Positions 8,002 through 46,569 of a stretch of DNA of 64,000 nt are shown piece after piece. Position 1 is the first letter of the stretch. Each line of letters begins with the position of its first letter. The notes under the pieces are model-generated. The model did no database searches and had not been told where the DNA came from. It saw only the letters and a list, made by a program, of their open reading frames with translations. This DNA is from an uncultured Bacilli bacterium (lineage in GTDB: Bacteria > Bacillota_I > Bacilli_A > ML615J-28 > CAG-313). The position numbers and the translations under genes were made by a program. The stretch lies in the NCBI GenBank assembly GCA_949879765.1, contig CATLBQ010000007.1:1-64000 (forward strand), in the 5' to 3' direction.

Positions 8002-8006
8002 TTTAA

Positions 8007-23932: not shown

Positions 23933-24061
23933 ATTGTTTACACTCCTTCCGCCATGATTTGGTTGTCTATCAATCATAGTAAGTTATTAACCTTTCTTAT
24001 TATATCAAATATTTTGATAAAAGTCAAATGTTTTAGATAAAAGGATGAAAAGAAAGAAAAA

Positions 24062-24097
24062 AATAAGGTAGACCCCGAAAGGTTTACCTTATTTTGT
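24062..24097 (-). terminator. Intrinsic terminator of the giant gene
   Basis: aataaggtagacc-ccgaaa-ggtttaccttatt hairpin. Confidence 0.75.
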
Positions 24098-24099
24098 TT

Positions 24100-27000
24100 T
24101 TAAAGTGCATTGGCTCTCGCAATGATACTTGCAAATTGTTGTACTTTTGCATCAGTCCAATATGCTTCATTATATACATATGTTCCATTGACATATGAAT
24201 CATACTCAGCTTGGAATTCTGTATCTAATAATCCAGATGCTTCAAGTTGTTGTTGTACAGTAGTGTTTTCTTCAATCACGTTGAAGACAATACACATAAC
24301 AGCCGTTCTTACAGCAACACATTCATTGATTGTTGTGAAGAATTCTTTCAACTGTGTTTCATCTTGACAAGCATATACATCATTATAATCAAATGTTGAA
24401 CCAGATGTAGTTTCAAATGCCATCATTTGATCCAATACATCCATAATTTGATATGCCTCATCATTCCAATCTCTATCATCTGTTGTATCAATACTTACCT
24501 TTGCATTATTCGGGAAGTTAAAGAAACCTCTATTATAGAAACGAGTTAACCAAAGTTGTGGTCTAGATGTTACAGTATATAAACCCTCTTCTTGATGTTC
24601 TCTTGTTCCAAACATCAAAACCATAATGTCTTTGGCGTCTTGGAGAGCAATTTCTTTACTTGTACCATACCCTACTTCTTGTAATTTGCTATATGCTACA
24701 AATAACTTCTCAAATTCACTAGCCCACTTATCAGGAGTAAATCCTGGATCAGTGAAGTCCACAATATCACGATAATCTTCATTGCCAAGCATTGGTTCTA
24801 CCTTATCCATATAGAATTGTGGTAAGAATTGTTGTCCAACAATAGATTGACTCATTGCGTCAACGACTTTGACAAATTGTGCTTGAACTGCTTTATCTTC
24901 TAATGCACTTGAAGATACATTATTGATATCCATAAGTTTACTTAAAGATACAAGTTCTTTTAAGGCATCCATTAATACAACTTGTTCAGCTGTCCAATCT
25001 TGAACTGCATCAAAGTCAAATGTATATGCTTTTAAGGCATCCACACGTTTTACAACAGCATGGAGTAATGTTGCTTCTAAGCCTTTGGTATACTCTAGTG
25101 CGAAGAATTCTTCTGCAAGTGTAAGGATTGGATCTAAATAATTATAATCTAATCCACCTTCAAAATAGCCTAGGTCAACTACTGCTTTTAAGATATCGGA
25201 AATACGAGCATAGTCACTCATCAATTTATCATCAGTGTATGAAGTTTGATATAAATGATTGATATATTGATTGAATCGATCGCCAAATAATTTTTGAGAT
25301 AATTTTTCAGCAAATTGTCTTGCTACTAGTGGAAGAATTGTTGAATTTTCCATATGAGGTGTAGCATTTGCTACAGCATCTAAGAAGGCATTATTCTTCA
25401 TTGTAGATTTGTCATGAATATCAATTGTTGGTAATACGTTTTCTACTTCACGAAGGGCACTTGCTAATCCTTGATATTCCATCTCCCAGTTGACACTAGA
25501 GAAATCAACATCACGAATATCTATACCTACTACATAACAAGCATATTGCATCAATTGATCTAAGTATGGTGCAAAACTTGTACTATGAACAGCTATATCA
25601 GCCAAATCAATGATACCTTGAGCATTCTTATAATCGATTGTCTTCTTGAATAATCCTAATACATTTGCTTTTTCTACAATGTTAAATACATCTGGTAAGA
25701 ATGTATTGACAAATGTCTGGCTATCCATATGTTCTAAAATGGTAATTTCAACGATATCTTTTGTAAAGATACGTACGATGCCATCCGCAATTGGAGTTGA
25801 AATCTGTTCAAGTACTTTCGATTCAAATGCTTGATTTACTAAAGCAGTAACTTCGTTTTGGAAAGTTTGATCGTCAAACAATTCATATTTTTCTGTCTTC
25901 AATTGATCACCATAACGAGTGATGATATCAAGAGCTTTCATCATCGCACGATAGATTGCTTTTAATTCTACTTTCAGACTACCCTCAGGATATACCAAAT
26001 CCACTTTACCTAGTACATACATATTCTTCTTTAACTTATTGATTGGTGTCATTGTCTTATCTGATAAATCAAATACATTTGTGAATACACCAAATAAGCG
26101 GTCTGTATTTTCTGTGTTAGTGAAATCAATACCATTATTACTGAAAGCACCCATATCAAGTAAAGCGTCTAGTACAACACCGAATTCTTGACAAAGCGGT
26201 TCAATTGAATTTTCATCAATACCTAATCGATGAGCAAGATTTGCATTTTCAAGTTTTGGTAATACATATTTTTCATATCCCCAACTTGAAATGGCTTTGA
26301 ACACATTTGTATCTAATGCACCTTGATATAATGCCACAACTGCGCTCATCAGTTCTGTGTTACCGACATGTTGAAGTTTAACTTTGAGTAATCCTGTTTG
26401 AGCAACAATCGTTAAGATTTCTTTTGCATATGCGGAAAGAACCTTACCATCACTCGCTAAATCAACACCGGTTAAATCAAGATCACTCATATCTATTTCA
26501 CCAACAAAAGTGTTAGCAAAACGAACAAGTTCTTGTTTCTTTTGATCTACAAAATTTAGCGCAAAGACTTCTTCAATGATTGTTTGTGCAGGGATTATGC
26601 ACTCATCTTTAGACACATTGTCTTTGATACTTCCAGGAACAGCATCCATTTGAGCTACTGCTCTTGTAATACGTGCAACACGTGCCATATCTTCGTCTAA
26701 ATCAGCTACTGTGTATGTATCTAAATTACCTAATTCACCAAGTGATACAGGTAAACGATGATATACAAATCTATTGTATAGAGGTTTAAATAATTGATTA
26801 AAGGCATCAGATAAATCTAATGTTTCCATCACTACTGCTAAACTGTCTGTATCAGCAAGTCTAGCCATAGCTTTTATTTCAGATTGAATATTAGTTCTAT
26901 TGAGAGATTTGATATAAGCATATACTTCTTTTACTGTATGCCAGCCACATGATGCAAATACATCAATACCTTCTGTAATTAATGTACGTAAATATGCAAA

Positions 27001-30000
27001 TTCATAATCCCAATTTACACCACTTAAATCTATTTCATTGGTGATTACACCCAATGTTTCTAAAGCTTCTAGAAGAACTTCACTTCTATCCGCTAAGCAG
27101 TGCAATGCTTCAAGATAATCTACAATGCTATTCAAGGCTTCTGTTCTTGTCATTTCTGTTGTTTGAGCATTTAATGTTGAAGTGATAGTTCCAGTAAATG
27201 GAATATCTTTATTCTTAACAACATCAATGATACCAAAGTCAACAAGAGTTCGAACTAACGTTGCGGAAAGAAGAGCATCTTCTTTGATTTGTTCGAAAGT
27301 AAGTCCATCAAAGGATACTGCAGCAACTACACCACGATATTTTTCAGGAACTTTTGTTTCTACAAACTCTTTTAATTCAGGAAGCAACAATTGATAAGTT
27401 GTTGTTTGAACAAATTTATCATAAGCATCCACAAATTGATATCTATATTGGTTTGTACCGCTTAACATATCTCTAGTGATATTGAATCCACTATTCATAA
27501 AGGCACGAATATCTTGATATGTAGGGAATGGGTTGTATTTGCTTGTCAAATAAGGCACTAAGTCTTTATACATTTGTGCAAATACATTCATATCACCAGC
27601 AAAATCAAATTCGCTTGCATGTAATGCTTGAATACTGAATGGTAAAATAGAACGTCTATCTACAAAGTCAATGATTTGATCCATATGATACTTGAAGTAA
27701 TTCATATCAGCTAGACTTGACAATATAGCCTCAACTGCATCCACATTTGCGTAATCAATATTTTGATTATTTAAAATAGATACAATGTCTAATTGATGAA
27801 GTGCTTTAACTACTGATGTAGCAAGCGCTAAATCTTCCATAAATTCTTCATTTGTATACATACTTACATCACTAGCATGACCTAAAGTTAATGAATATTG
27901 TTCAATATATGGTGTAATGATATTATTCATCATTGCCAATCCATTTTCTTGTACAAGGGTCATACGAGTTAAGGCATCCATTATGTTTTCCATCATAATC
28001 CAATTTGCTTCTTGACTTAAGAAGGCTTTGATACCTGCTTTATTCATCAATTGTTGGATATAGGCTTTTGCATCTGCTATATTGTTGATATGTTCTCTAG
28101 CAAATAAATCATATAACTCATTCATCACTAGTTTCATATCTTCTTTATCTAACGCAAATACAGTTGTTTCAAACTTGAATGCATCTTCTGCGATTTCAAA
28201 TCCAGCAATCTTCTTACCATTGATGAAGTCTTTAGCAACCAATGTAAGTACAGCTTCCATATGTCCATTTAACATATCTAATGCAACTACATCATCAAAT
28301 ATACGAGTTACCATTTCACGCATTTGTTCTGTAAAGTATGCTTTATTTTCAATTGTTGTAGTTAAATCCATTTCTTTCATGGCAAAGACAATGTCTTCTA
28401 AGTATGGAATATCATGTTCTACAACATCTAAAGTCAAGTGTTCTAAGTCAAGTGCTTCATAATATTGAGGTGCGAACTTCTTCATCAAAGGAAGAGATAC
28501 TAATAAAATAGCAGGTCCTGTCTTTTCATAAATCGTCGTATCCATATAAGTTAAGATGAAGTCTAATGCATTTTCATAGAAACTTGCTTGTCCAAGTAAT
28601 TGCATATTGAAGTTGTTGTTCTTCACATCTGCATTGCTATTGATTGTCCAATATTTGTTTCGTGTAATGTTATAGAAATAACTATACATTTCAATTATCT
28701 TAGGTGCATCTGCTTTTAAGTTTACACCATCAGCAGTAATATCACTTAAGTCTTGTGAAACTAATCCATCTACAGCTTTGATTACAGCATCTAGTCTACC
28801 ATCATTATTGAAATAGTATAGACCAAATAAATGGTTGACTACTGTTTCAACAACATCTGAACGATCAAATGGATATGGTGCATCTTCTTTAACAATTTGA
28901 TATAAATCTAATGTACGAATAGATTCAATTGTTGTAGCCAATGCACTTAAATCGGCTGTAAATTCTTGTGGATGATTATAAATTTGGTGAATACCAATTA
29001 AATCAAATAATTTATTATTCTCTTTTACATATTTTTCTGAAATAGGGAAAGCAATTGCTTCTACTAATTCTGATTCACTACATAACTTAGCTAAATCTAT
29101 CATTGCATCTAGATAAGTATCTGTTTGTTCGTTGACTTTCCATAATTCTTGAGCAAATTCTTTCGTGAATAATGCTTTGATTTGAGAAAGTGTATCTGCT
29201 TGTTTTGCATTGAAAATGCGATATGCAATACGAACAACTTCATTGATTTCAGCCCAAGTTTGTTGATAATCAATTGTACTTAGAGCCATTGCAGTTGTAT
29301 CAATACCTAATTTATCAAATAACGCTGTTAATAGATTTTGTTCATTATGATTCATGCAATGTAGTGTTTGCATCTTATTGATTGCAGCATTGATTACATC
29401 TGCTGTAGATACATCAATGGCACCACCAAACAACATGAATTCAAGCATACCATAATCTAATAATTCACGGCTTATAGAAGCAAGTGTATGTACATCTGCT
29501 ACTAATTCTTCTGTTGTTGCATCGATGAATAAATATTCCATTGCAAAGCCTTTTTGGCCAGTAAATTTAGCCATATGCATTGCAAATGTTGGAAGTAATA
29601 CTTGAAGTGTTTTTACCTCAACGGCTTGATCAACACCATTTACAAAGGCATTTACTACATTACGATTTAGTGTAGCTTCATCTTGGTATGTCTTATTCTT
29701 GAAGATACCTAAAATATCTTTTACGGTTAAGACATTCGATGCTACATAAGCTGCTTTAAATTCTTCTAATGCTTGAATAAGTTGTGGAGCTTCATCTTTG
29801 AAGACGATACCTTCAAATAAACTTGCTTCTACTGTATCACTTGATTTTAATGCTTCTAAGATTTTGTTTGTTGCAAGTGCTGCTATATCTGCCCACTTCT
29901 TATTCAAAATATGAAGTTCGCTTGCTGCTGCTACGATTTCTTCGTAATCGTTGAAATGAAGTGATATATCTTCAATCTTAGTGCCAAATATAACATCTAT

Positions 30001-33000
30001 AATTTCTGCTCTATCCATTGGTGCTACTGCCAACAAGATTTGTCTTGCATCTTGTACCAATTCTTCTTTGGTGAATGCACCTTTTAAGAAACTTACATCT
30101 ACACCTTTTACTTGATCTACCCCATAATTGAATACATCTGGTAATAAGAAGGCAACAGTTTCTAAATCCAATACTTCACGTGCGAATTCCACTAATGCAT
30201 CTAAAGTTGCCCCTTTATAGAATGCTTTATATTGATAATCTTTGTTATTGACAATCTTCATTACATCTTTTAAAGAAGTATATTCTAAACTATCCATCAA
30301 TGGACGAACCGCTACAATTGCTTCAGCAAGAGATGCAAATTCGTTTTGATATTGGATGGTTTCGAAATCTGCTAATGTTACATCAAATGAAATGACTACT
30401 TTCTTTGTTGCCAATTGGAATAGTTCATACATTAGATTTGGTGCATGTTTTTGAATCATATGGAAATCATATAATCCTTCTACCATTTCAGCTATTTTTT
30501 CAACATTTAAGTTTTGAATGTCTTGTGTAGTCACATATTCTAATGCGCCTACTGTTACAGCATCTTTTAAGTATGCTACTAACAATTTAGCATCTTGTAC
30601 TAATTCTAATTGATTCAAGTCATCTAATATGAATACGAAATCTTTTGTTGCATTATTTTTAGTTAATTGATCACGACCTACACGAGCAGCAGTTGGTAAT
30701 ACGGCTTGAATAGTTTGTGTATCAAGTAATGCATCTAATGCATCTAGTAATGGATTGACTACAGCTTCGTTTGCATATTTTGCATCTTTATATGCTTTAT
30801 ATTGCATAATATCGATGGCATCTTTTACTTTTACAATCGCTGCATTTTCAAAGGATTGTTGTGCAGCTTGAATTGCTTGAACAAGACTAGATACTTCATC
30901 TTTAAAACGAATACCTTCAAATAGACTAGTTTCTACACGATCTTCTACTTTTAATGCACCTAAGACTTGGTTGGTTGCAAGTGTTGCAACATCGGCCCAT
31001 TTGTGATTTAAAAGATGTAAATCACCTAAAACAAGAACCATTTCTGAATAGATATCCATATGAAGTGGTAATTCTTTGACATCTAATCCAAATACCAATT
31101 GAATAAGTTCAGCTTGAATAGCCGGAACAATTAACTTCGCAGCAGTACGAATATCTTCTACCCATTCTTCTTTTGTTAATGTACCTTTTAAGAAAGATAA
31201 ATCCACTTTCTGAACTTGAGTAGCAACTAAATCAATCACATCTACAAGTACCAATTGAAGAATTTGAGAATCTACTACTTGTACTACCATATCTGAAAGA
31301 ATTTCACCCATTTCAACATCATAGAAAGCTTCTTTCTTATAGGTATCTCCGCTTATAAATGCTTGAATATCAGTTATCGAACGTAAATCTTGTTTGTCTA
31401 ATACTCTTTGTGCATTTCGAATGATTTGTGCAAGAAGAGTGAATTCTTGTTTTACATCAATTGTCTTCACTTGTGAATCTGTTACATATAGGGTATCATT
31501 CCACTTGTCATTGATTAATTTTAATCCATAGTTAATGGCATTAAATAATAATTCACTTTCATTTGCTTGTACAACATGTAAATCATACATCTGTTCCACG
31601 ATATTTGCAGCTTGATTTAAATCAACCATTTGGATGTTCTTGGTTCTCAAGTATTCCATAGCACCAAATGAGATGGCTTCATCAAGAATATTCGCTAATG
31701 TACCTAAATCTTCCATCAATGCCTCTTTAGAAACTTGAGATAAATAATCGATAGAGAATGGAACTTTGCCTGAACGGTTAGCCAAATCAACTATATATTT
31801 AAAGCCTTTTTCAATGATATTACCTACCAATTGAGATTGTTGTAATGTTCTAAGTGCTTCTGTAGCCACATAACCTACACCATCTGTCAATACAGTTGGA
31901 TATGTATACCATTTATCTTTAAAGAAATTGGTTAGAGCATACATGGTTTGAACATTAGCCGTTTCAAAGAAATCGTATCCTAATGCAAGAAGTGCTTTAA
32001 TAATTTCTTTTTCACTTGCCCAATCAATATTTCTAAAATCGAAATCGTCTTTACTGAGTTCAAATACTTGATCTTGTGCATAAAGTGCAATCAATTTATC
32101 ATATACAACTTCTGCTAAACGACCATTGGCACATTGTACCATATTCAAAGCATATATATCATCTACAAGCGAAAGCACTACAGATTCATCTGGTAAAGCC
32201 ATTTCGCCTTTTTCTCTATCTAGATAGTAATCTACGATATGTGCATCTTCTACTAATTTATGATCAATTGTTACTAAACTACGGAAATCATCAACCAATT
32301 GTTCATTGGTAAGTTCATAGATATAATCCAATTGAATGCCTTGTTCACCAAGGAATTTTACACCACACTTGATACCTAACGGAATAATCGCATCAATAAC
32401 TTCTACATCCGCAATCTTATCTATGATATTTAATATACTTGTGGCATTGGCATCTGTTACATATGTGTCATACTCATGATTTCCTTTTAGAATGCCTTGA
32501 ATAATTTCAATGGCGGCATTGACATCAGTCACTTGATTTTCTTTGAATAAAGCAACAATATCGGTAATGATGTTTTTGTATACTGCCTTTTGGCCTTGCC
32601 AATCTACATTCGAGAAATCTTCATTGATTGCACCTAATTCAATCTTCAATAATGATGCAATATAATTTACTCCCCAAGATAATGTAGCTTCTTCATGACC
32701 ATGGAATAACTCCATATCATGTAATGCATCTATAATATTGCAAAGAGCATCACTCAATTGATCATTGATAGCAATATTGCCTCCTTTGGTCAAGAAGGAT
32801 TGAGCATCTACAGCAACAAGTTGGTCTAACACATATACCAAACAACGTAAATCGTGGACTAGCGTTTGTCCACTTGCATTGGTTAAATCTAACTCTTCTA
32901 CAATGCTCTTGAAATCTTCTGGAATGATATCTTTAGCTTCTACATAAGTATCATAAATTGTAGGAAGTAAAACTTCAATTAATTTTGATCCACTTGCATT

Positions 33001-36000
33001 TGCGTCTTCATATGTACCAAATAATACTTTTACACCATCAACTAAAGTTTGTGCATTTTCATTTTCTGCCCAGAAATTTAAATCCAAAATCAATTGATTT
33101 TTTTCATTAAAGAGTGAGAATGATTCATCTTGTAATACGTCACTAATTTCATCAATGAAAGATAATAAGATATCTTTTTCACCAGTATAATCTAACGCAA
33201 CCAATTGATTGTATACATCACCATCTTTTTCAATATCTAAAAGACCAGAGACTTTTAGTAATAAACGAATGATTCTACCTTCAAAACCTTGGATGATTTT
33301 TGAATCAAAAATACCAGACACAATCGTCTTCATAGCATCTACTTGTTCTAAAGCAAGTGCATGTAATCCATCATTTTTGATATCTAATACATTTAAATCC
33401 ACAACGGCTTTTACAACATCAACCAATTGAATAACTTCATTCACCAATTCTTCGGAAGAAATATGATCTAAAATATCTCGAATCAAAGCACTGTCATCTA
33501 TTGTTTCTAATTTTTCAATTTGTGGTACTAAATATTTGTCTAAAACATTTGGCAATATCGCCAATACCACTTGAGATTCAACTATATTTTCAAGTGCTTC
33601 TACTACATAATCTAAGAAAGTATCATTTTCTAATAATTGTTCAATATTCTGACTCAAACTAGACAAATCATAGATATCAAATCCTTCTACATCAATCAAT
33701 TTTGCATAGGTATCAATCAAACTCAATAAAACAAGCGTTTCATGATTCCAATCTACATTTTGGAAAGCTTCTTCTTCTAAAGCTTCAATCCAACCAAATT
33801 GTCTCATTGAAGCAAGAACAAGTTTGTTTTTCAATTGATTGTCACCAAGAAGATGTAATCCCAATGCTTTTTCTACAATCAATTTTAAATTTGCAATTGC
33901 TTGATCACTTGTAAGATCTAGATTTTGGTAAACAAAAGGATTTAAATTTTCTAATACTTTGATTTCATTGGTTGCTTTAGCAATATCCAAGATATCTTTT
34001 AAATCGTCTTTCCATTCTTCACTTGTCATACCACTAACATCTACAATGTCATCAAATTCATTTGCTTTTTGATCAATCCATTCATCTAAGAATTTTTGCA
34101 TTGTTGGTGTACCTGCAAGTTGATACAATTGTAAGTCAACCAATTGACTAGCAAAAGTATTTGCAGATTCAAATTTATCCGTATGCTCTAAAATATCTTG
34201 AACAATATCTACCCAATTTTTAGTTTGGAATTCTTCAACAGATTCAAAACCAAATGTAAGGAATGTTTCATACAAACTAACCAATTGTCCAAATTCTTTT
34301 TGCCATTCTACTTTGCTGAAGTCCACATTGTCTAAAGCATGTTTGGTAATATCTTGAACTTTCTCTATAGAAACGCCAACTGCTACAGCAATATTAACAA
34401 TATCATGCATCTTTTTCGTTGAAAATAATTTGTTTACTACACTACGTAAAATAGTTGCATCTAAATGAAGATAATCTGCTGTTACTCGGTCTGGAAATTC
34501 TTTGAAATTAGCCAAATTAGCAGCTTCTCTAACAGCACTGACAATTTGCTTCAAATCGTCTGTAGTCAGTTCCCCTTTTAACTTTTCAACAGCTTCTAAT
34601 TGGTTGGCATCTTCTAATAATTTTCGAATTTGCTCTTGACGAAGTGCATAGTCAAGTCCTACTGGAACTACTACTTTGTCCGCAATTTGAAGAGATAGAA
34701 TGTGGTGTACCATCACCAATACATCGTCCAAACGGTTCGAATCATTGAGAATATCGTGCAAAATACTATTGTAATTTTCTTTTACATTTTCAATAGTTTT
34801 CAAATCAAATTTTTGTACTTCTTCGTAAATGTTCACTATATCATGGAATTCTTGTTTCCAATTGATGCCTTTAAAATCAATTTGATCTAATGCATCGCCC
34901 ACGATTTCTTTGACTTGAGCTTGATTAAGCCCTATCGCAAGACCAATTTTTACAACATCATATAAACTTGAAGTTTGAGTTTCTTTATCTAATGTTGAAA
35001 AAATTTGATCAACAACAGCATGCAAAATAGCTACATCTAAATTCAAATAATCCACTTCAATCGTTGGATAATTTGAAAAATCAATTAATGGTAATGCCGT
35101 TTTGATGGCAGCTACAACTGCTTTTAAGTCTTCAATCGTCATATCAAAACGAAGACTACTAAATGCATTAAATTGATCTGCATCTTCTAAAAGTTTTTTG
35201 AATCCTTCGATATTAGAAGCATATTCAATTCCAGAAGGTACTGCAATTTGTTTGAGTAATTCTACTTCTAATGCTTGATTGATGATTTCAAACAATGTTT
35301 CTGTTTTACCTGCATTGTTTAAAATATCTTTGATGAATGCATTGGTATCTAACCCTTCAAACGTGGTAACACCAAAGGTTTGGAAATTAGCATACATATC
35401 CACAAGGATATTCAATTCCTTTTTCCAATCGATGTCTTCAATACCACTGACAAATTGATAACCTATCCATTCTACAACCTTTTCATGAGATAACCCTGTA
35501 TTGATTGCAATTGGAAGAATTTTTTGAATCAATTCTGTTTTTGCCAGTACATTCACTACATTTCTCAGTTGTTCTGCATTCATTGTCAAATAGTTGAATT
35601 GATCAAGTGGGAAAATGCCCAATTGGTATGCTTCTACAACAGCATCCAAAATAGCATCTAAATCTTTGCCCCAGTTGATATAACGCAGACTCAAATAATC
35701 TGAGTCTTGATACGCATTGTTAAGTGCTTCTTGAATAACTGGTATTTCATATCCATATTCAATCGCTACAGGCATACCTTCAACCAATAACTTTGATTTT
35801 TTCAATGCATTTAAGGCATTTTGCAATTCTTCAATTGACCATTTTTCGGGATTGGATTTGCCATTTAATGCATTTGCAGCTTTGATAAAAGTGATTAATT
35901 CTTCACTTACACTAATGTTTTGGTTTTTTGTTTCAATTCTTAGCAAATCATCAAACAAACTTTCACTAAATGATTTACCAAAGAAATAACTTGATGCATT

Positions 36001-36843
36001 TGCAAATTTACCTAAACCACTTTCGTCATAGGCTTTTGCAAAGTCAAAAATCATTTCAATGGGATCATCTGTGGAAGTTGTTTGTTGTTCTTTACCATTC
36101 ACCAAATCGGAAATCATTCCTCTGGTTTCTGGAGTAGCTGTGTTAAGAACTGTACAAATCCCAGAAAGTGGCACACAAACCAAAATAACTACAAAGACAC
36201 CTTTCAATGATCCAGCAAGAGCACCCCACCAGCGTTTTTTGCCAGCAGGCTTTTTGACCAACTCATTGGCTTCTTTTGTTACTACAGCTTCTTCGACACT
36301 TTCTTCGCCAGTAGAAATTAAAACTTGTTCCTTTTCAGAAACAGCGGTTTCACTGGCTGCTTGTTCTATAGGTTTTTTCTGCTTTGCTGCACGGATAATC
36401 AACTCAATCATATGTGTAATCAAACGAATGATTGGAGAAATGATTAATACAACTACTGTGCCAGCAAGTAATCCGACTGCGCGGAAGATGGTACCAACCA
36501 CACTATAGAAAAGCGTGTACGTTTCCTTTCCTTCAACTAGTAAATCCTCTCCATTAGGAACAACGCTTCTAGCATATACTAAAATCGCATCCCAAATAGT
36601 AGAGATAGAATCATCTTGGACCCCTAGTATTTCAGCAACTCGTTGACCGGCCTTTACATTGAGTAAAGTGGCTTGATCACCAAATACTAGCCAAGATAAA
36701 ACTAGTAAAACTATGAAAACGGCTACGCACCTAAGTTCTCTTTTTAGTCCACCTAAAAAGCCCCAAAGTGCGAAAAGTAATACTATTACTAGCAATCCCA
36801 AACCAGCAAATAGTAAGATTTGATTAAAATCCATCATTTTCAC
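24100..36843 (-). CDS. Giant CvpA-like-anchored helical-repeat protein (4247 aa)
   Basis: Intact ORF; N-terminal hydrophobic segments ILLFAGLGLLVIVLLFALWGFLGGLKREL, VAVFIVLLVLSWLVF, VVGTIFRAVGLLAGTVVVLIISPIIRLI, LKGVFVVILVCVPLSGICTVL; the remainder is leucine/isoleucine-rich helical repeats with recurring (I/V)(N/D/E)WxxE motifs. Confidence 0.85.
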   Translation of the reverse strand: MKMMDFNQILLFAGLGLLVIVLLFALWGFLGGLKRELRCVAVFIVLLVLSWLVFGDQATLLNVKAGQRVAEILGVQDDSISTIWDAILVYARSVVPNGEDLLVEGKETYTLFYSVVGTIFRAVGLLAGTVVVLIISPIIRLITHMIELIIRAAKQKKPIEQAASETAVSEKEQVLISTGEESVEEAVVTKEANELVKKPAGKKRWWGALAGSLKGVFVVILVCVPLSGICTVLNTATPETRGMISDLVNGKEQQTTSTDDPIEMIFDFAKAYDESGLGKFANASSYFFGKSFSESLFDDLLRIETKNQNISVSEELITFIKAANALNGKSNPEKWSIEELQNALNALKKSKLLVEGMPVAIEYGYEIPVIQEALNNAYQDSDYLSLRYINWGKDLDAILDAVVEAYQLGIFPLDQFNYLTMNAEQLRNVVNVLAKTELIQKILPIAINTGLSHEKVVEWIGYQFVSGIEDIDWKKELNILVDMYANFQTFGVTTFEGLDTNAFIKDILNNAGKTETLFEIINQALEVELLKQIAVPSGIEYASNIEGFKKLLEDADQFNAFSSLRFDMTIEDLKAVVAAIKTALPLIDFSNYPTIEVDYLNLDVAILHAVVDQIFSTLDKETQTSSLYDVVKIGLAIGLNQAQVKEIVGDALDQIDFKGINWKQEFHDIVNIYEEVQKFDLKTIENVKENYNSILHDILNDSNRLDDVLVMVHHILSLQIADKVVVPVGLDYALRQEQIRKLLEDANQLEAVEKLKGELTTDDLKQIVSAVREAANLANFKEFPDRVTADYLHLDATILRSVVNKLFSTKKMHDIVNIAVAVGVSIEKVQDITKHALDNVDFSKVEWQKEFGQLVSLYETFLTFGFESVEEFQTKNWVDIVQDILEHTDKFESANTFASQLVDLQLYQLAGTPTMQKFLDEWIDQKANEFDDIVDVSGMTSEEWKDDLKDILDIAKATNEIKVLENLNPFVYQNLDLTSDQAIANLKLIVEKALGLHLLGDNQLKNKLVLASMRQFGWIEALEEEAFQNVDWNHETLVLLSLIDTYAKLIDVEGFDIYDLSSLSQNIEQLLENDTFLDYVVEALENIVESQVVLAILPNVLDKYLVPQIEKLETIDDSALIRDILDHISSEELVNEVIQLVDVVKAVVDLNVLDIKNDGLHALALEQVDAMKTIVSGIFDSKIIQGFEGRIIRLLLKVSGLLDIEKDGDVYNQLVALDYTGEKDILLSFIDEISDVLQDESFSLFNEKNQLILDLNFWAENENAQTLVDGVKVLFGTYEDANASGSKLIEVLLPTIYDTYVEAKDIIPEDFKSIVEELDLTNASGQTLVHDLRCLVYVLDQLVAVDAQSFLTKGGNIAINDQLSDALCNIIDALHDMELFHGHEEATLSWGVNYIASLLKIELGAINEDFSNVDWQGQKAVYKNIITDIVALFKENQVTDVNAAIEIIQGILKGNHEYDTYVTDANATSILNIIDKIADVEVIDAIIPLGIKCGVKFLGEQGIQLDYIYELTNEQLVDDFRSLVTIDHKLVEDAHIVDYYLDREKGEMALPDESVVLSLVDDIYALNMVQCANGRLAEVVYDKLIALYAQDQVFELSKDDFDFRNIDWASEKEIIKALLALGYDFFETANVQTMYALTNFFKDKWYTYPTVLTDGVGYVATEALRTLQQSQLVGNIIEKGFKYIVDLANRSGKVPFSIDYLSQVSKEALMEDLGTLANILDEAISFGAMEYLRTKNIQMVDLNQAANIVEQMYDLHVVQANESELLFNAINYGLKLINDKWNDTLYVTDSQVKTIDVKQEFTLLAQIIRNAQRVLDKQDLRSITDIQAFISGDTYKKEAFYDVEMGEILSDMVVQVVDSQILQLVLVDVIDLVATQVQKVDLSFLKGTLTKEEWVEDIRTAAKLIVPAIQAELIQLVFGLDVKELPLHMDIYSEMVLVLGDLHLLNHKWADVATLATNQVLGALKVEDRVETSLFEGIRFKDEVSSLVQAIQAAQQSFENAAIVKVKDAIDIMQYKAYKDAKYANEAVVNPLLDALDALLDTQTIQAVLPTAARVGRDQLTKNNATKDFVFILDDLNQLELVQDAKLLVAYLKDAVTVGALEYVTTQDIQNLNVEKIAEMVEGLYDFHMIQKHAPNLMYELFQLATKKVVISFDVTLADFETIQYQNEFASLAEAIVAVRPLMDSLEYTSLKDVMKIVNNKDYQYKAFYKGATLDALVEFAREVLDLETVAFLLPDVFNYGVDQVKGVDVSFLKGAFTKEELVQDARQILLAVAPMDRAEIIDVIFGTKIEDISLHFNDYEEIVAAASELHILNKKWADIAALATNKILEALKSSDTVEASLFEGIVFKDEAPQLIQALEEFKAAYVASNVLTVKDILGIFKNKTYQDEATLNRNVVNAFVNGVDQAVEVKTLQVLLPTFAMHMAKFTGQKGFAMEYLFIDATTEELVADVHTLASISRELLDYGMLEFMLFGGAIDVSTADVINAAINKMQTLHCMNHNEQNLLTALFDKLGIDTTAMALSTIDYQQTWAEINEVVRIAYRIFNAKQADTLSQIKALFTKEFAQELWKVNEQTDTYLDAMIDLAKLCSESELVEAIAFPISEKYVKENNKLFDLIGIHQIYNHPQEFTADLSALATTIESIRTLDLYQIVKEDAPYPFDRSDVVETVVNHLFGLYYFNNDGRLDAVIKAVDGLVSQDLSDITADGVNLKADAPKIIEMYSYFYNITRNKYWTINSNADVKNNNFNMQLLGQASFYENALDFILTYMDTTIYEKTGPAILLVSLPLMKKFAPQYYEALDLEHLTLDVVEHDIPYLEDIVFAMKEMDLTTTIENKAYFTEQMREMVTRIFDDVVALDMLNGHMEAVLTLVAKDFINGKKIAGFEIAEDAFKFETTVFALDKEDMKLVMNELYDLFAREHINNIADAKAYIQQLMNKAGIKAFLSQEANWIMMENIMDALTRMTLVQENGLAMMNNIITPYIEQYSLTLGHASDVSMYTNEEFMEDLALATSVVKALHQLDIVSILNNQNIDYANVDAVEAILSSLADMNYFKYHMDQIIDFVDRRSILPFSIQALHASEFDFAGDMNVFAQMYKDLVPYLTSKYNPFPTYQDIRAFMNSGFNITRDMLSGTNQYRYQFVDAYDKFVQTTTYQLLLPELKEFVETKVPEKYRGVVAAVSFDGLTFEQIKEDALLSATLVRTLVDFGIIDVVKNKDIPFTGTITSTLNAQTTEMTRTEALNSIVDYLEALHCLADRSEVLLEALETLGVITNEIDLSGVNWDYEFAYLRTLITEGIDVFASCGWHTVKEVYAYIKSLNRTNIQSEIKAMARLADTDSLAVVMETLDLSDAFNQLFKPLYNRFVYHRLPVSLGELGNLDTYTVADLDEDMARVARITRAVAQMDAVPGSIKDNVSKDECIIPAQTIIEEVFALNFVDQKKQELVRFANTFVGEIDMSDLDLTGVDLASDGKVLSAYAKEILTIVAQTGLLKVKLQHVGNTELMSAVVALYQGALDTNVFKAISSWGYEKYVLPKLENANLAHRLGIDENSIEPLCQEFGVVLDALLDMGAFSNNGIDFTNTENTDRLFGVFTNVFDLSDKTMTPINKLKKNMYVLGKVDLVYPEGSLKVELKAIYRAMMKALDIITRYGDQLKTEKYELFDDQTFQNEVTALVNQAFESKVLEQISTPIADGIVRIFTKDIVEITILEHMDSQTFVNTFLPDVFNIVEKANVLGLFKKTIDYKNAQGIIDLADIAVHSTSFAPYLDQLMQYACYVVGIDIRDVDFSSVNWEMEYQGLASALREVENVLPTIDIHDKSTMKNNAFLDAVANATPHMENSTILPLVARQFAEKLSQKLFGDRFNQYINHLYQTSYTDDKLMSDYARISDILKAVVDLGYFEGGLDYNYLDPILTLAEEFFALEYTKGLEATLLHAVVKRVDALKAYTFDFDAVQDWTAEQVVLMDALKELVSLSKLMDINNVSSSALEDKAVQAQFVKVVDAMSQSIVGQQFLPQFYMDKVEPMLGNEDYRDIVDFTDPGFTPDKWASEFEKLFVAYSKLQEVGYGTSKEIALQDAKDIMVLMFGTREHQEEGLYTVTSRPQLWLTRFYNRGFFNFPNNAKVSIDTTDDRDWNDEAYQIMDVLDQMMAFETTSGSTFDYNDVYACQDETQLKEFFTTINECVAVRTAVMCIVFNVIEENTTVQQQLEASGLLDTEFQAEYDSYVNGTYVYNEAYWTDAKVQQFASIIARANAL
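29590..31200 (-). repeat. Two clearly related in-frame copies inside the giant gene, offset 1104 nt (368 aa)
   Basis: SFLKGTLTKEEWVEDIR..LHLLNHKWADVATLATNQVLGALKVEDRVETSLFEGIRFKDEVSSLVQAI versus SFLKGAFTKEELVQDAR..LHILNKKWADIAALATNKILEALKSSDTVEASLFEGIVFKDEAPQLIQAL. Confidence 0.8.
34300..35460 (-). repeat. Three W-anchored repeat copies inside the giant gene (spacing 189 and 185 aa)
   Basis: IDWKKELNILVDMYANFQTFG, INWKQEFHDIVNIYEEVQKF, VEWQKEFGQLVSLYETFLTFG; Trp codons at 35425, 34858 and 34303 (plus-strand positions). Confidence 0.75.
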
Positions 36844-36870: not shown

Positions 36871-36899
36871 ATTTTACCAAATTTTTATTTTTTTTGCAA
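36871..36899 (-). promoter_or_regulatory. Predicted sigma-A promoter of the giant gene
   Basis: Minus strand TTGCAA - 17 nt - TAAAAT, 28 nt upstream of the start codon. Confidence 0.5.
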
Positions 36900-37037: not shown

Positions 37038-37067
37038 AAGAATCCAAATCCATAGATTTGAATTCTT
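37038..37067 (-). terminator. Intrinsic terminator of the 1001-aa gene
   Basis: aagaatccaaatc-cata-gatttgaattctt hairpin (one mismatch) with T run on the minus strand. Confidence 0.65.
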
Positions 37068-37078
37068 ACTTGGGCTAT

Positions 37079-40000
37079 TTATAATATCTCTAAATAAGTT
37101 AAAACAGCAGTAATCACAGCACTTTCTTCTACTTGAGTAGCTAGTTCTGGATAATCTTGTATATTAAATTCTTCTTGTTGGCTTATGGCTTCTTGGTACG
37201 TTGTGAGTGCAGCTGTTAGTGTAGCGGCTTCTTTTGTCCAATCGACATGTTCATCTATTTCTAACCCTTCATTTCCAACAAGTTGTGATAGCATATCTTG
37301 AGTTAAAGTTGTGCTATTTTCTATTTGATTTAAGGCAGAAAAAGCAGTAGACAAACGCTGGATGTTTTCATCCGTAATGTGATGCTTATCGGTATCTTGA
37401 ATTGCTTGAGCAACATCAATCATATGTCCTATGGTTTTAGCATACATCTGTAGCGATTCTGGGTGCGTAAAATCATACTTGGGTTGTTGCGTGATATCAT
37501 CTATTGGCAAAATATGCATTCCCTTTTCACCTAAAGCGTCATTTAAAAGTTGCCCTACTACTTTAGATGCAAGAATAGATGTACTCGATTGCCTCATGAT
37601 TTGTTCAACTGCACCACCTTGAATAGCACTGGTTTGGAATTGACCTGTTAAGGCATCTTTTAAGAATATATTTTTACTACTTTCTAACACCCTCACTAAC
37701 ACCCCTAGCTCTTGAACCATGGTGTGTTGCATCATTGTTTCTTTTTCTTGTGGTGTAAGCGTCACTGTAAATCCAGTTTGTTGTAATAAACAATCCAAAA
37801 GTGTAAATGTATATGGATTCATGATATGAGAAACATACATATCATCAAAGAAACCACCCACTTTTTGAGCGATATCTAACGCATTGTCTAACGTAGAGAT
37901 ATCTTGTTCTAGGAAAGACAAATCTGTACTCAAATCAATGATATCAAATAACACCTGTTTGAGCAAAGGTTGTTCTTCATTCCAATCGGTTGGTGTACTT
38001 GGTGCTACATAACTTATATATTGATTCATACCACTTAAATCTAAGAATAGTTGTACCAATTGTTGTTCATTCTTTTGTAACAACTGTAAACTGAGTAAAC
38101 AATCTAACATTTGCTCGACTTGAGCTTTGACTTTTTCATCGGTTAAATCCAGTTGATATGCCTGATTTGCATCAAAATGGTCTTTCAGCCGAATCTCTTG
38201 AGCAATTCGATATGCGGTAAAGAACGATTCCACATCAGTTGAAAAATCTTGTTGGAGATACTCCACTTGAATCAAATCGACGATGGGCGCAAATTCTGAA
38301 TGGCGTGTAGCTTGTTGTAACATTTGAATGACTGCTGGCAAATAATATGTTGTAGAAAGGGTAGAACGATTCAAGTCTTCTACTATGGTTTGAATGATGC
38401 TTGGCGTATGCTCATTTTCTAATAATTTGGATAAATCATTTCGGTCAAAAGGACAAGTGAGTACCAATTCATATGCATCTATACAAATGTCCAATAGAAT
38501 TTCGGTTTCTTTTGACCAGTCTACTTCTTCTTTGATAAAGGCATCTATATCGATGCCATATTCACTCACATCAAAACTTTTTTGAATTTGATTGGCCATC
38601 TTCTCTAGAATAGATGGGTAATTATCCTTTAATAAATAAACAGACAAAATATGGCGTTTGGCTTGTTGTAATTGAGTTTTTAATTCCTCAGTAAAGATAT
38701 ATGTACCTTCTACTTTTCGGATATAATCCAATACTTTGGTTTCCTTTAACAATTGGTATGCCTCAACTATTTCTTTTACATCCTTTGCTAAATAGGTTTG
38801 AATATATATCTCATTGATCCAATCTGTTACAAATGCATAGTCAGTCTCTCGCAAATAATCCTGTAAATAAAAATAAGATACTTTCGTAAAACATTCTTCA
38901 AACAATTCAACGGCCATTGCCTTAGTTAACGCATCACTAAAGTCATTTGCAAATGTATCACTTTCTAATAGCTGTTCTGTTTGAAAATCATCTAAATTGA
39001 TATGTTGAAGCAGTTGATAAACAGATTTTAAAAACGGTTCTGTTTCTGAAAAATTTTGGTTAATATCTAATTGTGATAAACGATCAAAATCTAAATTCCA
39101 TTTTTGAATATCTAACTTTTCTTGTTCAGTTTGTAAATAACCAATGATATATGGATAAAAGGCTTCAATGACTCTACTATCTCCTAAATATGTACAAAGT
39201 AAGTGAATATCTTCTTCTGTGAGTAAATCTAACTTTTCGTTGTTTGAAATATCTTGTGATGCACCTTCTACAATCTGTAAAATGCGTGGTAGCATAGGTG
39301 ATAGTGCATCTATTTCTGTGACAAAATTAATAGTTACACCATTGGTTTTGATTTGAAATACATTGCCCAAACGCTTGGCGGCTAAACCAAAAGAACCATT
39401 TTCTTTTTTCCCTAATGTCTTGGTTGTCTTTAATATAAAAGATGAAGACACAATTTCATTAAAATTCTCTGATTGTTCTATATAACTTTCATCTTGTTTT
39501 GCTACTTCTTCTAATGCTTTTTGTGTCACTTCTACAGCACCATATAACGGCAAAACAAAAATATAAAACATAAATATAAATCCGACAAAAGCAATACCTG
39601 CACCCAGTAGTCGGTCTAACAAGAACCGGTGTTTTTTCTTTCTAATTCCAGGAAGGACTAAAAAGAAAATAAATCGCAATAATGGCGCTCCAATCAATAG
39701 CCATACAATAGCAAAAGCAAGACAAATGACAAAACGACCTACCGAAATGGCCATATCTTCAATCAATATATCCATTTTGGCTTCCTTTAATTTATTCATA
39801 TCCCCTTCAAAACATTGATCGGCAACACCTTCTTCAATCCATGTATATAGTGAGGTTTCTTCTTCTGTAAAAATGTGATTTTCCATATAGATGACTTTTT
39901 GGGCTGCTCTTCCCGCAAAAATAAAACAAAGTATCAGTGGAACAATTTTAATAGTTACAATAATTCCTGTTCGAAGCGTCCCTTTGGTAAAACCTTTTAA

Positions 40001-40084
40001 TAGTGCGATTAAACCAATCAATAATACAAAAATATCAATTCCTAATACGATTATTCTGAATGTCTCATTACTCATCATTGACAT
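37079..40084 (-). CDS. CvpA-like-anchored helical protein (1001 aa), architectural relative of the 4247-aa protein
   Basis: TMs IIVLGIDIFVLLIGLIALLKGFTKGTLRTG, VICLAFAIVWLLIGAPLLRFIFFLVL, AGIAFVGFIFMFYIFVLPLYGAVEV; C-terminal EEVDWSKETEILLDICIDAYELV and EHVDWTKEAATLTAALTTYQEA. Confidence 0.8.
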   Translation of the reverse strand: MSMMSNETFRIIVLGIDIFVLLIGLIALLKGFTKGTLRTGIIVTIKIVPLILCFIFAGRAAQKVIYMENHIFTEEETSLYTWIEEGVADQCFEGDMNKLKEAKMDILIEDMAISVGRFVICLAFAIVWLLIGAPLLRFIFFLVLPGIRKKKHRFLLDRLLGAGIAFVGFIFMFYIFVLPLYGAVEVTQKALEEVAKQDESYIEQSENFNEIVSSSFILKTTKTLGKKENGSFGLAAKRLGNVFQIKTNGVTINFVTEIDALSPMLPRILQIVEGASQDISNNEKLDLLTEEDIHLLCTYLGDSRVIEAFYPYIIGYLQTEQEKLDIQKWNLDFDRLSQLDINQNFSETEPFLKSVYQLLQHINLDDFQTEQLLESDTFANDFSDALTKAMAVELFEECFTKVSYFYLQDYLRETDYAFVTDWINEIYIQTYLAKDVKEIVEAYQLLKETKVLDYIRKVEGTYIFTEELKTQLQQAKRHILSVYLLKDNYPSILEKMANQIQKSFDVSEYGIDIDAFIKEEVDWSKETEILLDICIDAYELVLTCPFDRNDLSKLLENEHTPSIIQTIVEDLNRSTLSTTYYLPAVIQMLQQATRHSEFAPIVDLIQVEYLQQDFSTDVESFFTAYRIAQEIRLKDHFDANQAYQLDLTDEKVKAQVEQMLDCLLSLQLLQKNEQQLVQLFLDLSGMNQYISYVAPSTPTDWNEEQPLLKQVLFDIIDLSTDLSFLEQDISTLDNALDIAQKVGGFFDDMYVSHIMNPYTFTLLDCLLQQTGFTVTLTPQEKETMMQHTMVQELGVLVRVLESSKNIFLKDALTGQFQTSAIQGGAVEQIMRQSSTSILASKVVGQLLNDALGEKGMHILPIDDITQQPKYDFTHPESLQMYAKTIGHMIDVAQAIQDTDKHHITDENIQRLSTAFSALNQIENSTTLTQDMLSQLVGNEGLEIDEHVDWTKEAATLTAALTTYQEAISQQEEFNIQDYPELATQVEESAVITAVLTYLEIL

Positions 40085-40151: not shown

Positions 40152-41417
40152 TTATCTTTCATTTTCTAAAATTTGGATTGAGACGCCAATGGATTTCAAT
40201 TTAGGGATAATTTGTTCATATCCTCTCAGTATAATTTGCGCATTTTCAATGATTGTGGTGTTGTTTGCTATTGCTGCTAATACAATACAAGCAAAACCAC
40301 ATCGTAAGTCATAGGCCTGTATCGTTGTCCCCATTAATGTCGAAGGAAAAATATGGAGTACCTCTTCTTCTATTGTCATTTTCCCACCCATTTTCTTAAT
40401 AGCTTCTATTTGAGAAAACCGGTTCGGATAGACCAAATCCTTTATCCTAGAAGGTGAAGTAACACTCAAACAAACCACAGATAAGATTTGTTGCAAATCA
40501 GTTGGAAAATGAGGATATATATCTACTATAGTTGTTGTACCTATCAGTGGTACATCATTGATAATTTCTATTTCATTATCCCCAATGCGCATCTGAAGTC
40601 CCATATCCTGTAATGTATGGATGACTTCTTCTATATACCGAATATCTACATTTTGTAGCGTTACATGCGCATGCGGGATGGCACTAGCCAAAAGCAAATA
40701 ACTTCCTGCTTCAATCCGGTCACTCATGATGGTAAAGCTAGCCCCTTTTAATCTTCTTACCCCTTCAATATGAATGGTATCTTGCAACACCTCAATTCGT
40801 GCTCCCATTTGCTTCAACAATGCAATGACCTCTAAGACCTCAGGTTCAGTAGAAGCATTGGATATACTGACTTTGCCTTTTCGCTTGGTACTTGCTAATA
40901 AAATATTAATAGTCGTGCCAACTGATTTTTGGGGTAGATAGATATGGATATCTTCTTTTTTCTGATTCTTTGGTCTTTGAAATATCAATTTACCAGATAC
41001 TTCACGAATCTGATACCCCAGTTTCTCAAAAGCATCGATATGGTAGTCAATCGGACGTCTTGAGAAATTACATCCTCCAGGATATACGGTTTCAAAAGAA
41101 ACATGGCAACCAACTAGGGCACCCATAATATAATACGAAGCCCGAATTTGCCGAATCAAATCCATAGATAAATCGGTTTTAATTTGTTTTTTAGTTAAAA
41201 TCATTTTTTGTTCATCAGGGGTATATTGGATTTCTACACCGATAGATGCTAAAATGTCTTTCATACAAAGGGTATCTGTAATATCGGGAAAATGAGACAA
41301 ACAAATAGGCTCATGGGTAAGAAGGGAGCAAGCCATAAGAGGTAAACTTGCATTCTTAGATCCACTAATCGATAGGGTTCCTTTTAATTGCTCGACGTGA
41401 CAAATTTTTAATTTCAT
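40152..41417 (-). CDS. murA: UDP-N-acetylglucosamine 1-carboxyvinyltransferase
   Basis: GTLSISGSKNASLPLMA, RASYYIMGALVGC, YPGGCNFSRRPIDYHIDAFEKLG with active-site Cys, FPTDLQQIL. Confidence 0.92.
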   Translation of the reverse strand: MKLKICHVEQLKGTLSISGSKNASLPLMACSLLTHEPICLSHFPDITDTLCMKDILASIGVEIQYTPDEQKMILTKKQIKTDLSMDLIRQIRASYYIMGALVGCHVSFETVYPGGCNFSRRPIDYHIDAFEKLGYQIREVSGKLIFQRPKNQKKEDIHIYLPQKSVGTTINILLASTKRKGKVSISNASTEPEVLEVIALLKQMGARIEVLQDTIHIEGVRRLKGASFTIMSDRIEAGSYLLLASAIPHAHVTLQNVDIRYIEEVIHTLQDMGLQMRIGDNEIEIINDVPLIGTTTIVDIYPHFPTDLQQILSVVCLSVTSPSRIKDLVYPNRFSQIEAIKKMGGKMTIEEEVLHIFPSTLMGTTIQAYDLRCGFACIVLAAIANNTTIIENAQIILRGYEQIIPKLKSIGVSIQILENER

Positions 41418-44671: not shown

Positions 44672-46399
44672 CTAAAAAACTGCATAAGCAAGTGCTAATA
44701 AATCGCCTTCTTCACTCACTCTATCAGAAAACATAGTTATTCGTATAACATATGTCGTAGTCTCTTCCACAAGATATGAAAATAATTCTACATTAGAATC
44801 AGAGCATTGTGAAGAAAGAATAATTTGACCATCAGGTAAAAATAACCTTAAGTCATAATCCCCCGTAACTGTTCCATTCTTTTTTCCATTCGCTTTTGCT
44901 AACCAAGCAAGTGACGCCCGAAGTGTTTGACCTTTTTCCAAATCAATACGATGTTCTATTACAAGTGCATCACCACTATTTACTGGATTTACCGTAGAGC
45001 ATGCCATATAAGCATTATACACATTTTTAATTGCATTCCCCAAATGCAATTTACCTGCCCCATAACCTGATGCTAGAGGCTGAAATGTTTGCGGTGCGCC
45101 AAAATTCCCCAATTGTTGCGCATTCGCACACAATATAGCAGTTACTAATTGAGGGTAACATTTCAAATATGGGCGTTTTTCCATAAGAAGCGCAATAGAA
45201 CCACTCGTAATCGCACAAGAAAAACTTGTACCATAATAGTTTTTATTAAAACCATCTACATAAACAGTTGTTCCTCTTGCTAGTAATGTTGGCTTCTCTG
45301 GTGCTCCATTTTTATATAAATAATTGGAAAAATAAGCATAATTTGTACCTTCTTCGTTGTGTGCACCAACACTAATTACATTGTATCCTAAAGCAAGTGT
45401 ATTGATATTGCCACCTTCATTTCCCGCCGCTACCACAATGGTAACTCGGTAGGTATATACAATATAATCTAAGTATGCCGATTTTGCATCATAATATCCA
45501 TCTGATACAGCATCGCCACAGGATAAATTAATGATATCTGCACCTTTACTTAGTAACCAGTCTATTTCATTACTAGGACTACCATATAAATATGAAGTTA
45601 AAATGGTAGCATTTGGTGCCATTCCTCCATGACCTGCTATAATAGCTGCCACTGCGGTCGTGTGTTCAACAACGGTATTCGCATGCAAAAATTGTTTGTG
45701 TGTAACAACATTGGTTCCTACTAAAGAAGCATGATCTTTATCCGCTATACCTAGTTCTAGTACCCCCACTTTTACACCATCACCAGTTAGCTCTCTACTT
45801 TCAAATAATTGCCCTGCCCCCATACCATAAAAAGCATTACACACTTTTTGCTCTATACTCATTTCATTAGTGCGTCTTACATATACGGTTTTAACAAAAG
45901 CTGTATTCGATAATTTAGATAATAGTTTTTGTTTGCATTGTTCAAATGTTTCTATCTCAAAGATATATTCAATATACGGCATATAATGCGATATATATTT
46001 ATCCATATATCCTTCTATTTCTAACAATTCATCTAATACCTTATTTTCTTCTAAATGGTATTGTCTAATAGCTTCTCTTGCATATCCACGAATCTCATTG
46101 ACCTCTCTATTCGTCATATCTTCTGTGACTTCAATGGGATTGATGGATGCCTCAATATTTTGCAATACGTTTTTGTTATGTTGGTTGTAATCTAATTCAA
46201 TTTCTAAAATGATGGCATCATTTGTGGATTCTTCTTCAGTAGTGTTATTATCACTAGTTAAACTTTCTGATGTTTTTGCTTCTGTTTTATACTTTAGGTC
46301 ATCTCGATATATAATCTTTTGATTATCTATACCATAAGTAATTAAAAAAGATCCCAAAATAATGACAATAGCTACCCCCATTACTGCTATTTTTTTCAT
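44672..46399 (-). CDS. S8 (subtilisin)-like serine peptidase, N-terminal signal/anchor
   Basis: VKVGVLELGIADKDH (Asp position is Glu), EHTTAVAAIIAGHGG (His), VTIVVAAGNEGGN (oxyanion Asn), YYGTSFSCAITSGSIALLM (Ser). Confidence 0.85.
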   Translation of the reverse strand: MKKIAVMGVAIVIILGSFLITYGIDNQKIIYRDDLKYKTEAKTSESLTSDNNTTEEESTNDAIILEIELDYNQHNKNVLQNIEASINPIEVTEDMTNREVNEIRGYAREAIRQYHLEENKVLDELLEIEGYMDKYISHYMPYIEYIFEIETFEQCKQKLLSKLSNTAFVKTVYVRRTNEMSIEQKVCNAFYGMGAGQLFESRELTGDGVKVGVLELGIADKDHASLVGTNVVTHKQFLHANTVVEHTTAVAAIIAGHGGMAPNATILTSYLYGSPSNEIDWLLSKGADIINLSCGDAVSDGYYDAKSAYLDYIVYTYRVTIVVAAGNEGGNINTLALGYNVISVGAHNEEGTNYAYFSNYLYKNGAPEKPTLLARGTTVYVDGFNKNYYGTSFSCAITSGSIALLMEKRPYLKCYPQLVTAILCANAQQLGNFGAPQTFQPLASGYGAGKLHLGNAIKNVYNAYMACSTVNPVNSGDALVIEHRIDLEKGQTLRASLAWLAKANGKKNGTVTGDYDLRLFLPDGQIILSSQCSDSNVELFSYLVEETTTYVIRITMFSDRVSEEGDLLALAYAVF

Positions 46400-46545: not shown

Positions 46546-46569
46546 AAAAGGGATACAATTATCCCTTTT
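46546..46569 (-). terminator. Intrinsic terminator overlapping the 3' end of the anti-sigma-like gene
   Basis: aaaagggata-caat-tatccctttt. Confidence 0.7.

Follow-up and report, generated by a model that had tools for sequence, protein, structure and literature searches.

A giant CvpA-anchored helical-repeat protein and its short adjacent paralogue in an uncultured Bacilli bacterium

The window analyzed here (the whole stretch of DNA under study, 64,000 nucleotides of contig C7 from a 1.48-Mb genome with a completeness of 93%) encodes on its minus strand a protein of 4,245 residues in which a divergent CvpA-type membrane domain is followed by a very long array of helical repeats, and the adjacent gene encodes a short paralogue of the same design. 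Our reading, offered tentatively, is that the giant is an extracellular envelope rod that would organize or protect the cell envelope as a long scaffold, spacer or tether on the surface.

An earlier note on this DNA had reported one uninterrupted 12.7-kb ORF encoding 4,247 residues. The ORF is intact on the minus strand (24100-36843), but the length needs a small correction: the GTG at 36843 falls within a Shine-Dalgarno sequence, AGAGGTG (36847-36841), in the region upstream of the giant gene, which reads AAAAAGAGGTGAAAATGATG. Because this GTG is part of the ribosome-binding site, the likely start is the ATG at 36837, giving 4,245 residues. The features of the locus are as follows.

24100..36837, minus strand: giant CvpA-anchored repeat protein, 4,245 aa (ORF with ATG start; dN/dS 0.11 against the orthologue in G001)
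36133..36837, minus strand: CvpA/Colicin_V-like four-TM domain, residues 1-235 (hhalign, Pfam, unrelated TM controls)
36763..36819, minus strand: TM1, residues 7-25 (hydropathy 2.91; AlphaFold2 helix 4-28)
36679..36735, minus strand: TM2, residues 35-53 (hydrophobic segment; AlphaFold2 helix 35-52)
36418..36474, minus strand: TM3, residues 122-140 (hydrophobic segment; AlphaFold2 helix 105-151)
36145..36201, minus strand: TM4, residues 213-231 (hydrophobic segment; AlphaFold2 helix 202-232)
35836..36144, minus strand: membrane-proximal region, residues 232-334 (alignments; AlphaFold2 strands)
24403..35835, minus strand: tandem repeat array, residues 335-4145 (iterated profile HMM, AlphaFold2)
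24103..24402, minus strand: C-terminal tail, residues 4146-4245 (no clear TM, no LPXTG)
37079..40084, minus strand: short partner, 1,001 aa (repeat HMM, hhalign, AlphaFold2)
37038..37067, minus strand: terminator-like hairpin and T run 3' of the short partner (folding z -4.5)
36871..36899, minus strand: candidate promoter of the giant gene, TTGCAA-17-TAAAAT (matches at chance level)
24060..24095, minus strand: terminator hairpin of the giant gene (folding z -4.3)

The terminator previously assigned to the giant gene clearly exceeds chance (1 found, against an expectation of 0.3). The promoter that was also assigned to it exists as a sequence match, but such matches occur at chance frequency (3 found against 2.5 expected), which leaves that claim weakly backed. 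The short partner gene, paralogous and adjacent to the giant, had gone unmentioned. An operon comprising both genes is unsupported, as the terminator at 37067-37038 separates them; because each gene has its own terminator, the pairing is one of adjacency and not a proven operon.

Several neighbors deserve mention. The gene 68 bp upstream of the short partner, on the same strand, encodes a MurA-type enolpyruvyl transferase (40152-41417), and genomes throughout the window's family (f1; f2 denotes the other family of its order, and other f numbers families of the same class) repeat the order aspartate ammonia-lyase-like, MurA type, short, giant, ABC-F. In G002 the MurA-type gene beside the giant is broken into two frames (L091:8545-9813), and the short partner gene on contig C57 is likewise split. 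Elsewhere in the window are a nucleotidyltransferase related to CD-NTase/SMODS cyclases (48816-49997; PADLOC Cyclase E 7e-11), which adjoins a PHP-domain protein and may be a defense gene or an orphan; an exported protein of 1,346 aa that resembles GHL10-type glycosyl hydrolases, has a long C-terminal region of helical appearance and ends in a hydrophobic segment (9777-13817); and a subtilase with an N-terminal hydrophobic segment (44672-46399), in whose vicinity lie a sigma-factor-like gene (47155-47685) and the gene of an anti-sigma-type protein with one TM (46568-47158). A SUKH-3 immunity-type protein (7111-8052; E 6e-9) may be the remnant of a polymorphic-toxin immunity island, and two further proteins lack any Pfam family (2941-5556, 871 aa; 14499-15665, 388 aa).

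Hydropathy places four hydrophobic segments within the first 231 residues of the giant (7-25, 35-53, 122-140 and 213-231), as had been described, and AlphaFold2 places helices at 4-28, 35-52, 105-151 and 202-232, with low confidence there (pLDDT about 25-60). The best Pfam family for this anchor alone was PF02674 (CvpA), under its curated cut-off (E 0.015; 15.7 bits as a single sequence against a cut-off of 29.3). PF02674 was also the top match of the partner's anchor, again under the cut-off (E 0.0015), and it matched 9 of 16 homologous anchors; homologues of the short partner reached 33-39 bits with pieces summed, above the 29.3 cut-off. When a profile of 16 giant-type anchors was aligned by hhalign with a profile of 8 ordinary CvpA proteins from relatives, the match spanned residues 4-234 and all four helices (97.6%, E 4.4e-12). 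The partner's anchor matched CvpA at 97.3% and the giant's anchor at 99.3%, whereas three unrelated membrane-protein profiles reached just 0.04-1.4%. Kinship between the two anchors is visible by profiles only (BLASTP E 0.32, not significant). The arginine at position 202, before TM4, is invariant, and P223 and G226 within TM4 are nearly so. Given these high matches and low controls, residues 1-235 of the giant are, by profile comparison, a divergent CvpA/Colicin_V four-TM domain, which agrees with the CvpA-like N-terminus proposed earlier. Ordinary CvpA relatives nearby have 173-251 aa and no ectodomain; because the giant and its partner (4,245 and 1,001 aa) are not TM domains only, we refer to them as CvpA-domain proteins rather than ordinary CvpA. 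The earlier note had called a CvpA-anchored solenoid unusual, which is true against textbook CvpA but not within the class, where the architecture is widespread.

The basic TM1-TM2 and TM3-TM4 loops noted before in the giant recur in ∼50 homologues from 10 families, in which both loops are net positive and the TM2-TM3 loop is acidic. These charges, together with the four helices, indicate that both termini lie outside (N-out/C-out), and the positive-inside rule thus supports the prediction, also made in the earlier note, that the repeats lie outside the cytoplasm. A precedent for this topology is the mycobacterial protein MarP, whose C-terminal domain lies in the periplasm after four N-terminal TM helices (PMC4992679). 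The ectodomains of the ∼50 homologues are acidic, with a net charge of -5 to -16 per 100 residues, and contain 0-0.9% cysteine; that of the giant contains 0.35%, compared to 1.26% in 15 other window proteins. Because secreted proteins can equal cytosolic ones in this metric (three secreted window proteins contain 0.7-1.5%), low cysteine is weak evidence of topology.

Analyzed with an iterated HMM seeded with residues 471-690 (172 model positions), residues 335-4145 proved to be tandem copies of a single all-helical repeat of ∼185 aa, 20 of them strong (E 2e-33 to 2e-19) and one weak (E 1.4e-3); against reversed, shuffled and neighboring proteins, the best E of this HMM was 0.21. The copies have diverged inside the giant, sharing about 9-30% identity with the first. 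The motifs singled out in the earlier note (DWxxE, LLEDAxQ, LTxEDLK) are real but are fragments of this one repeat rather than stand-alone elements. AlphaFold2 modeled the array within residues 1-1150 as nearly all helix (pLDDT mostly 70-90); with a pTM of 0.49, the overall superhelix is undefined in the model. The membrane-proximal region contains a conserved strand pair common to the giant and its partner, F-D-x(2)-L-x(3)-E-T-x-N-Q-x-I-x(4)-E, which AlphaFold2 models as strands near residues 299-310 (giant) and 244-253 (partner). At the other end, the C-terminus (...FASIIARANAL) has neither an LPXTG signal nor a clear terminal TM, and Pfam identified no trypsin-like or other protease family in giant or partner.

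The full-length giant matched no family in Pfam or NCBIfam (in Pfam nothing at E ≤ 5 except DUF6331, 0.27), FIVAR/GA helical bundle repeats gave no Pfam match, and a PDB sequence search returned no significant relative. Foldseek searches against the PDB gave best E values of 0.09 and 0.045, neither significant, and the nearest of these non-significant folds were the HEAT-type solenoids importin-beta, CRM1 and FANCI. Named alpha-solenoid repeats of the HEAT/ARM/TPR type thus had neither a Pfam repeat match nor a significant fold match. No giant CvpA protein was described in the literature searched, and a characterized giant family of the same architecture, which the earlier note had said would count against its view, was found in neither that literature nor the libraries. 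The repeat and the architecture appear to be new, being without match in Pfam, NCBIfam, the PDB and the searched literature, with an anchor of a known family.

Array length differs between relatives. The orthologue in the sister species G001 is 91.6% identical and has 24 copies, the main difference being one in-frame 552-residue insertion of three units bordered by a shared LHFNDYEEI. In G006, at least 31 copies occupy 6,049 residues of an ORF that leaves the contig end. A third protein with strong repeat copies (open frame 1,100 aa) lies distant from the main locus in G003 (G003:C3:109720-111153).

The short partner, immediately upstream of the giant, has the CvpA-like anchor, the strand pair above the membrane and three repeats (370-543, E 5e-24; 552-720, E 4e-22; 825-965, E 6e-4), and its AlphaFold2 model is helical (mean pLDDT 77.7). 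Short and giant genes are adjacent on the same strand in at least 8 other f1 genomes, while G007 (judged 97% complete) has the short protein and no giant was found in it. In G005, a gene for a 1,131-aa secreted BspA-like leucine-rich-repeat protein lies between the two (L071:5359-8754). In family f22, long (2.2-2.9 kaa) and short (0.9-1.3 kaa) CvpA-solenoid genes are also neighbors, in the order opposite to that in f1. In a tree of anchor plus base (unrooted, with long deep branches), the f22 long and short proteins share one clade (100/100) apart from both f1 clades, which suggests that long/short pairing probably arose independently at least twice. The f22 pair is adjoined by a divergent lipoprotein gene with a trypsin-like domain (PF13365; L127:2665-3522, L140:1966-2859; by position also L128:3031-3858 and L146:1515-2342) and followed by a 5'-nucleotidase-like lipoprotein. 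The separate trypsin-like lipoprotein recalls MarP, in which TM helices and trypsin form one protein, but a link is unproven.

Against G001, dN/dS is 0.11 for the whole giant gene (0.08-0.17 per 400-aa block) and 0.096 for the partner. A ratio this low over the whole length points to a real, constrained protein, as the earlier note had argued from the intactness of the ORF alone, and purifying selection on both proteins fits poorly with a diversifying or variable antigen. Identity falls from base to tip: f1 genera share about 40% in the anchor and 15-20% at the far end, with the C-terminal tail the least conserved part, and inside the genus the values are 58-63% at the base and about 30% at the tip. 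Despite this fall, close species show selection of even strength all along the giant.

The relatives that carry names are metagenome-assembled genomes, and most of these come from animal guts. One, labeled Anaeroplasma bactoclasticum, is 95% identical over the first 600 residues, and others are labeled Bacilli or Erysipelotrichaceae. Among 398 sampled class genomes, the anchor-plus-base profile matched 138 (E ≤ 1e-3) or, at the stricter threshold of E ≤ 1e-10, 106, so that between roughly a quarter and a third of them encode relatives in which CvpA is joined to 0.9-6 kaa. All 20 regions taken from these matches encode a CvpA-type protein of 875-3,683 residues, and 18 of the 20 have at least one copy of the repeat (HMM E < 0.01), usually near the membrane; a 1,691-residue f21 protein and the short f22 partner in L146 had no match at this threshold. 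Distal sequence has drifted past the HMM in other families, and the full tandem array is thus shown for f1 only. With the repeat profile alone, a phylum sample of 398 genomes gave 28 matches, all in the same class and none beyond it.

All 12 f1 genomes that have the giant also encode penicillin-binding transpeptidases (PF00905), f2 is divided (present in 11 genomes, absent in 13), and 72 of the 106 stronger carriers lack these enzymes, among them one- or two-contig genomes (G155, G167, G134, G146, G084 and G185). Judged by PF00905 alone, carriers that lack it are likely wall-less. Because so many carriers lack these enzymes, CvpA-solenoid proteins are clearly independent of PBP-made peptidoglycan; the same observation leads us to reject a peptidoglycan-specific factor, an idea prompted by the MurA-type neighbor in f1. 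Presence of CvpA-solenoids is associated with transpeptidase loss (Fisher p 0.004), but as most families are all-or-none, the association is confounded by phylogeny and we do not claim it.

Among known systems, CvpA (PF02674) resembles the giant across the entire N-terminal four-TM domain, including conserved glycines in TM1 and R-x-x-G before TM4; the giant differs in its ∼4,000-aa repeat array and in scoring below the Pfam cut-off. In staphylococci, Ebh is likewise a giant membrane-anchored helical-repeat rod, linked to envelope robustness, but it is built of three-helix-bundle FIVAR/GA repeats and has another anchor. The giant also lacks the C-terminal sorting signal and terminal TM of the Gram-positive LPXTG class, as checked in the sequence. 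MarP (Rv3671c) likewise begins with four TM helices and has its C-terminal domain outside the membrane, although its ectodomain is a single trypsin-like protease where that of the giant is a solenoid (PMC4992679). Giant1-3 of Apilactobacillus kunkeei are giant extracellular proteins of mostly rod-like alpha-helical repeats encoded by neighboring genes, but, compared by description, they have an N-terminal beta-solenoid and other C-terminal domains, and a CvpA anchor is unmentioned (PMC12863079). Gli349 and Gli521 of Mycoplasma mobile, from a related wall-less lineage, are also giant membrane-anchored surface proteins of neighboring genes; by description, they differ in TM and domain layout and serve gliding, with neither a CvpA domain nor the repeat mentioned (PMC7052211).

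Computation establishes the family of the anchor, the repeat array and its indels of whole units, purifying selection over the full length, the tandem partner, the distribution across the class and the charge signature of the topology. From these data, we infer the localization of the giant, its extended shape, its partnership with the short protein and its role as a scaffold. The CvpA-type four-helix domain would sit in the cytoplasmic membrane with both ends outside, and about twenty 185-residue repeats would form one continuous acidic alpha-solenoid rising from the conserved base above the membrane. One A. kunkeei helical-repeat protein, Giant3, from a set of 3,000-8,000-aa proteins, has been estimated at 0.2 µm (PMC12863079); scaled from this, ∼3,800 residues might reach roughly 0.1 µm, a rod of about 100 nm by rough scaling that assumes extension. 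The short paralogue probably acts with the giant at the base, perhaps via packing of the conserved glycine-containing CvpA helices, and rod length may be tuned through gain or loss of whole repeats. The most likely job would be mechanical and structural. The drop in conservation from base to tip fits a rod working from its base, and the conserved base, the diverging far end, length changes by whole units, the pairing and independence from peptidoglycan together favor a scaffold, spacer or tether over an enzyme. CvpA itself points to the envelope, because loss of cvpA makes EHEC and two Vibrio species sensitive to deoxycholate, a bile salt (PMC6705877).

Other readings fit parts of these data. 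It is unlikely that the giant is an adhesin or interaction rod whose solenoid stalk bears a binding tip for host mucus, plant fiber or other microbes. Giant proteins of bacteria often serve adhesion or aggregation (PMC12863079), the named relatives come mostly from gut genomes, and the distal part and tip are where genera diverge most; however, purifying selection is strong throughout, also in the tip region (0.08-0.17), the Pfam search found no recognized binding domain, and what is conserved class-wide is a CvpA anchor, not an LPXTG or single-TM anchor. We consider it unlikely that the long/short pair forms a protein coat or mesh, a surface skeleton without need of peptidoglycan that would give strength and shape to wall-less Bacilli and would persist beside the wall in relatives that kept one.

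Very long alpha-solenoids of eukaryotes are mostly intracellular and the nearest, though non-significant, folds are of the HEAT type, so one could envisage an inverted topology in which a HEAT-like solenoid on the cytoplasmic side of the membrane would serve as a platform for binding proteins. This is rather unlikely, since loop charges in the homologues indicate the opposite orientation, MarP offers a precedent for it, and the low cysteine content argues weakly in the same direction. A long continuous amphipathic-helix solenoid rooted in a conserved membrane base might instead provide a hydrophobic groove or conduit that moves lipid or another ligand between the membrane and outer envelope layers, and the deoxycholate sensitivity of the cvpA mutants (PMC6705877) could be read in this way; nevertheless, an outer membrane is not expected in this lineage and the Pfam search gave no lipid-transfer family match, making such a function quite improbable.

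A large and a larger membrane-anchored protein encoded side by side, and the apparently wall-less state of many carriers, also recall the force-transmitting surface machine of M. mobile, with Gli349 (3,183 aa) as leg and Gli521 (4,727 aa) as crank (PMC7052211). A role of this kind is highly improbable: the Gli proteins, compared by description only, are described with other TM and domain layouts, neither an ATPase nor a motor gene is conserved beside the pairs, and CvpA-solenoids occur in walled cells too. A sequencing or annotation artifact (a chance ORF or joined genes), for which nothing speaks beyond the length of the giant, has a negligible probability and is refuted by orthologues of 4.0-6.0 kaa in independent assemblies, the dN/dS of 0.11 and the in-frame indel of whole units.

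Returning to the envelope rod, the giant and its partner take up about 1% of the 1.48-Mb genome, and the pair must therefore pay its way. CvpA is an old and widespread membrane domain; in the giant it is joined to a helical array that ranks among the longest known from small-genome bacteria, in an architecture that is conserved across the class, including many lineages without penicillin-binding transpeptidases. The repeat is nameless in current libraries and merits a family of its own. If these proteins do act as a surface scaffold, they would bear on how wall-less bacteria hold their envelope together and may provide a handle on the role of the CvpA domain.
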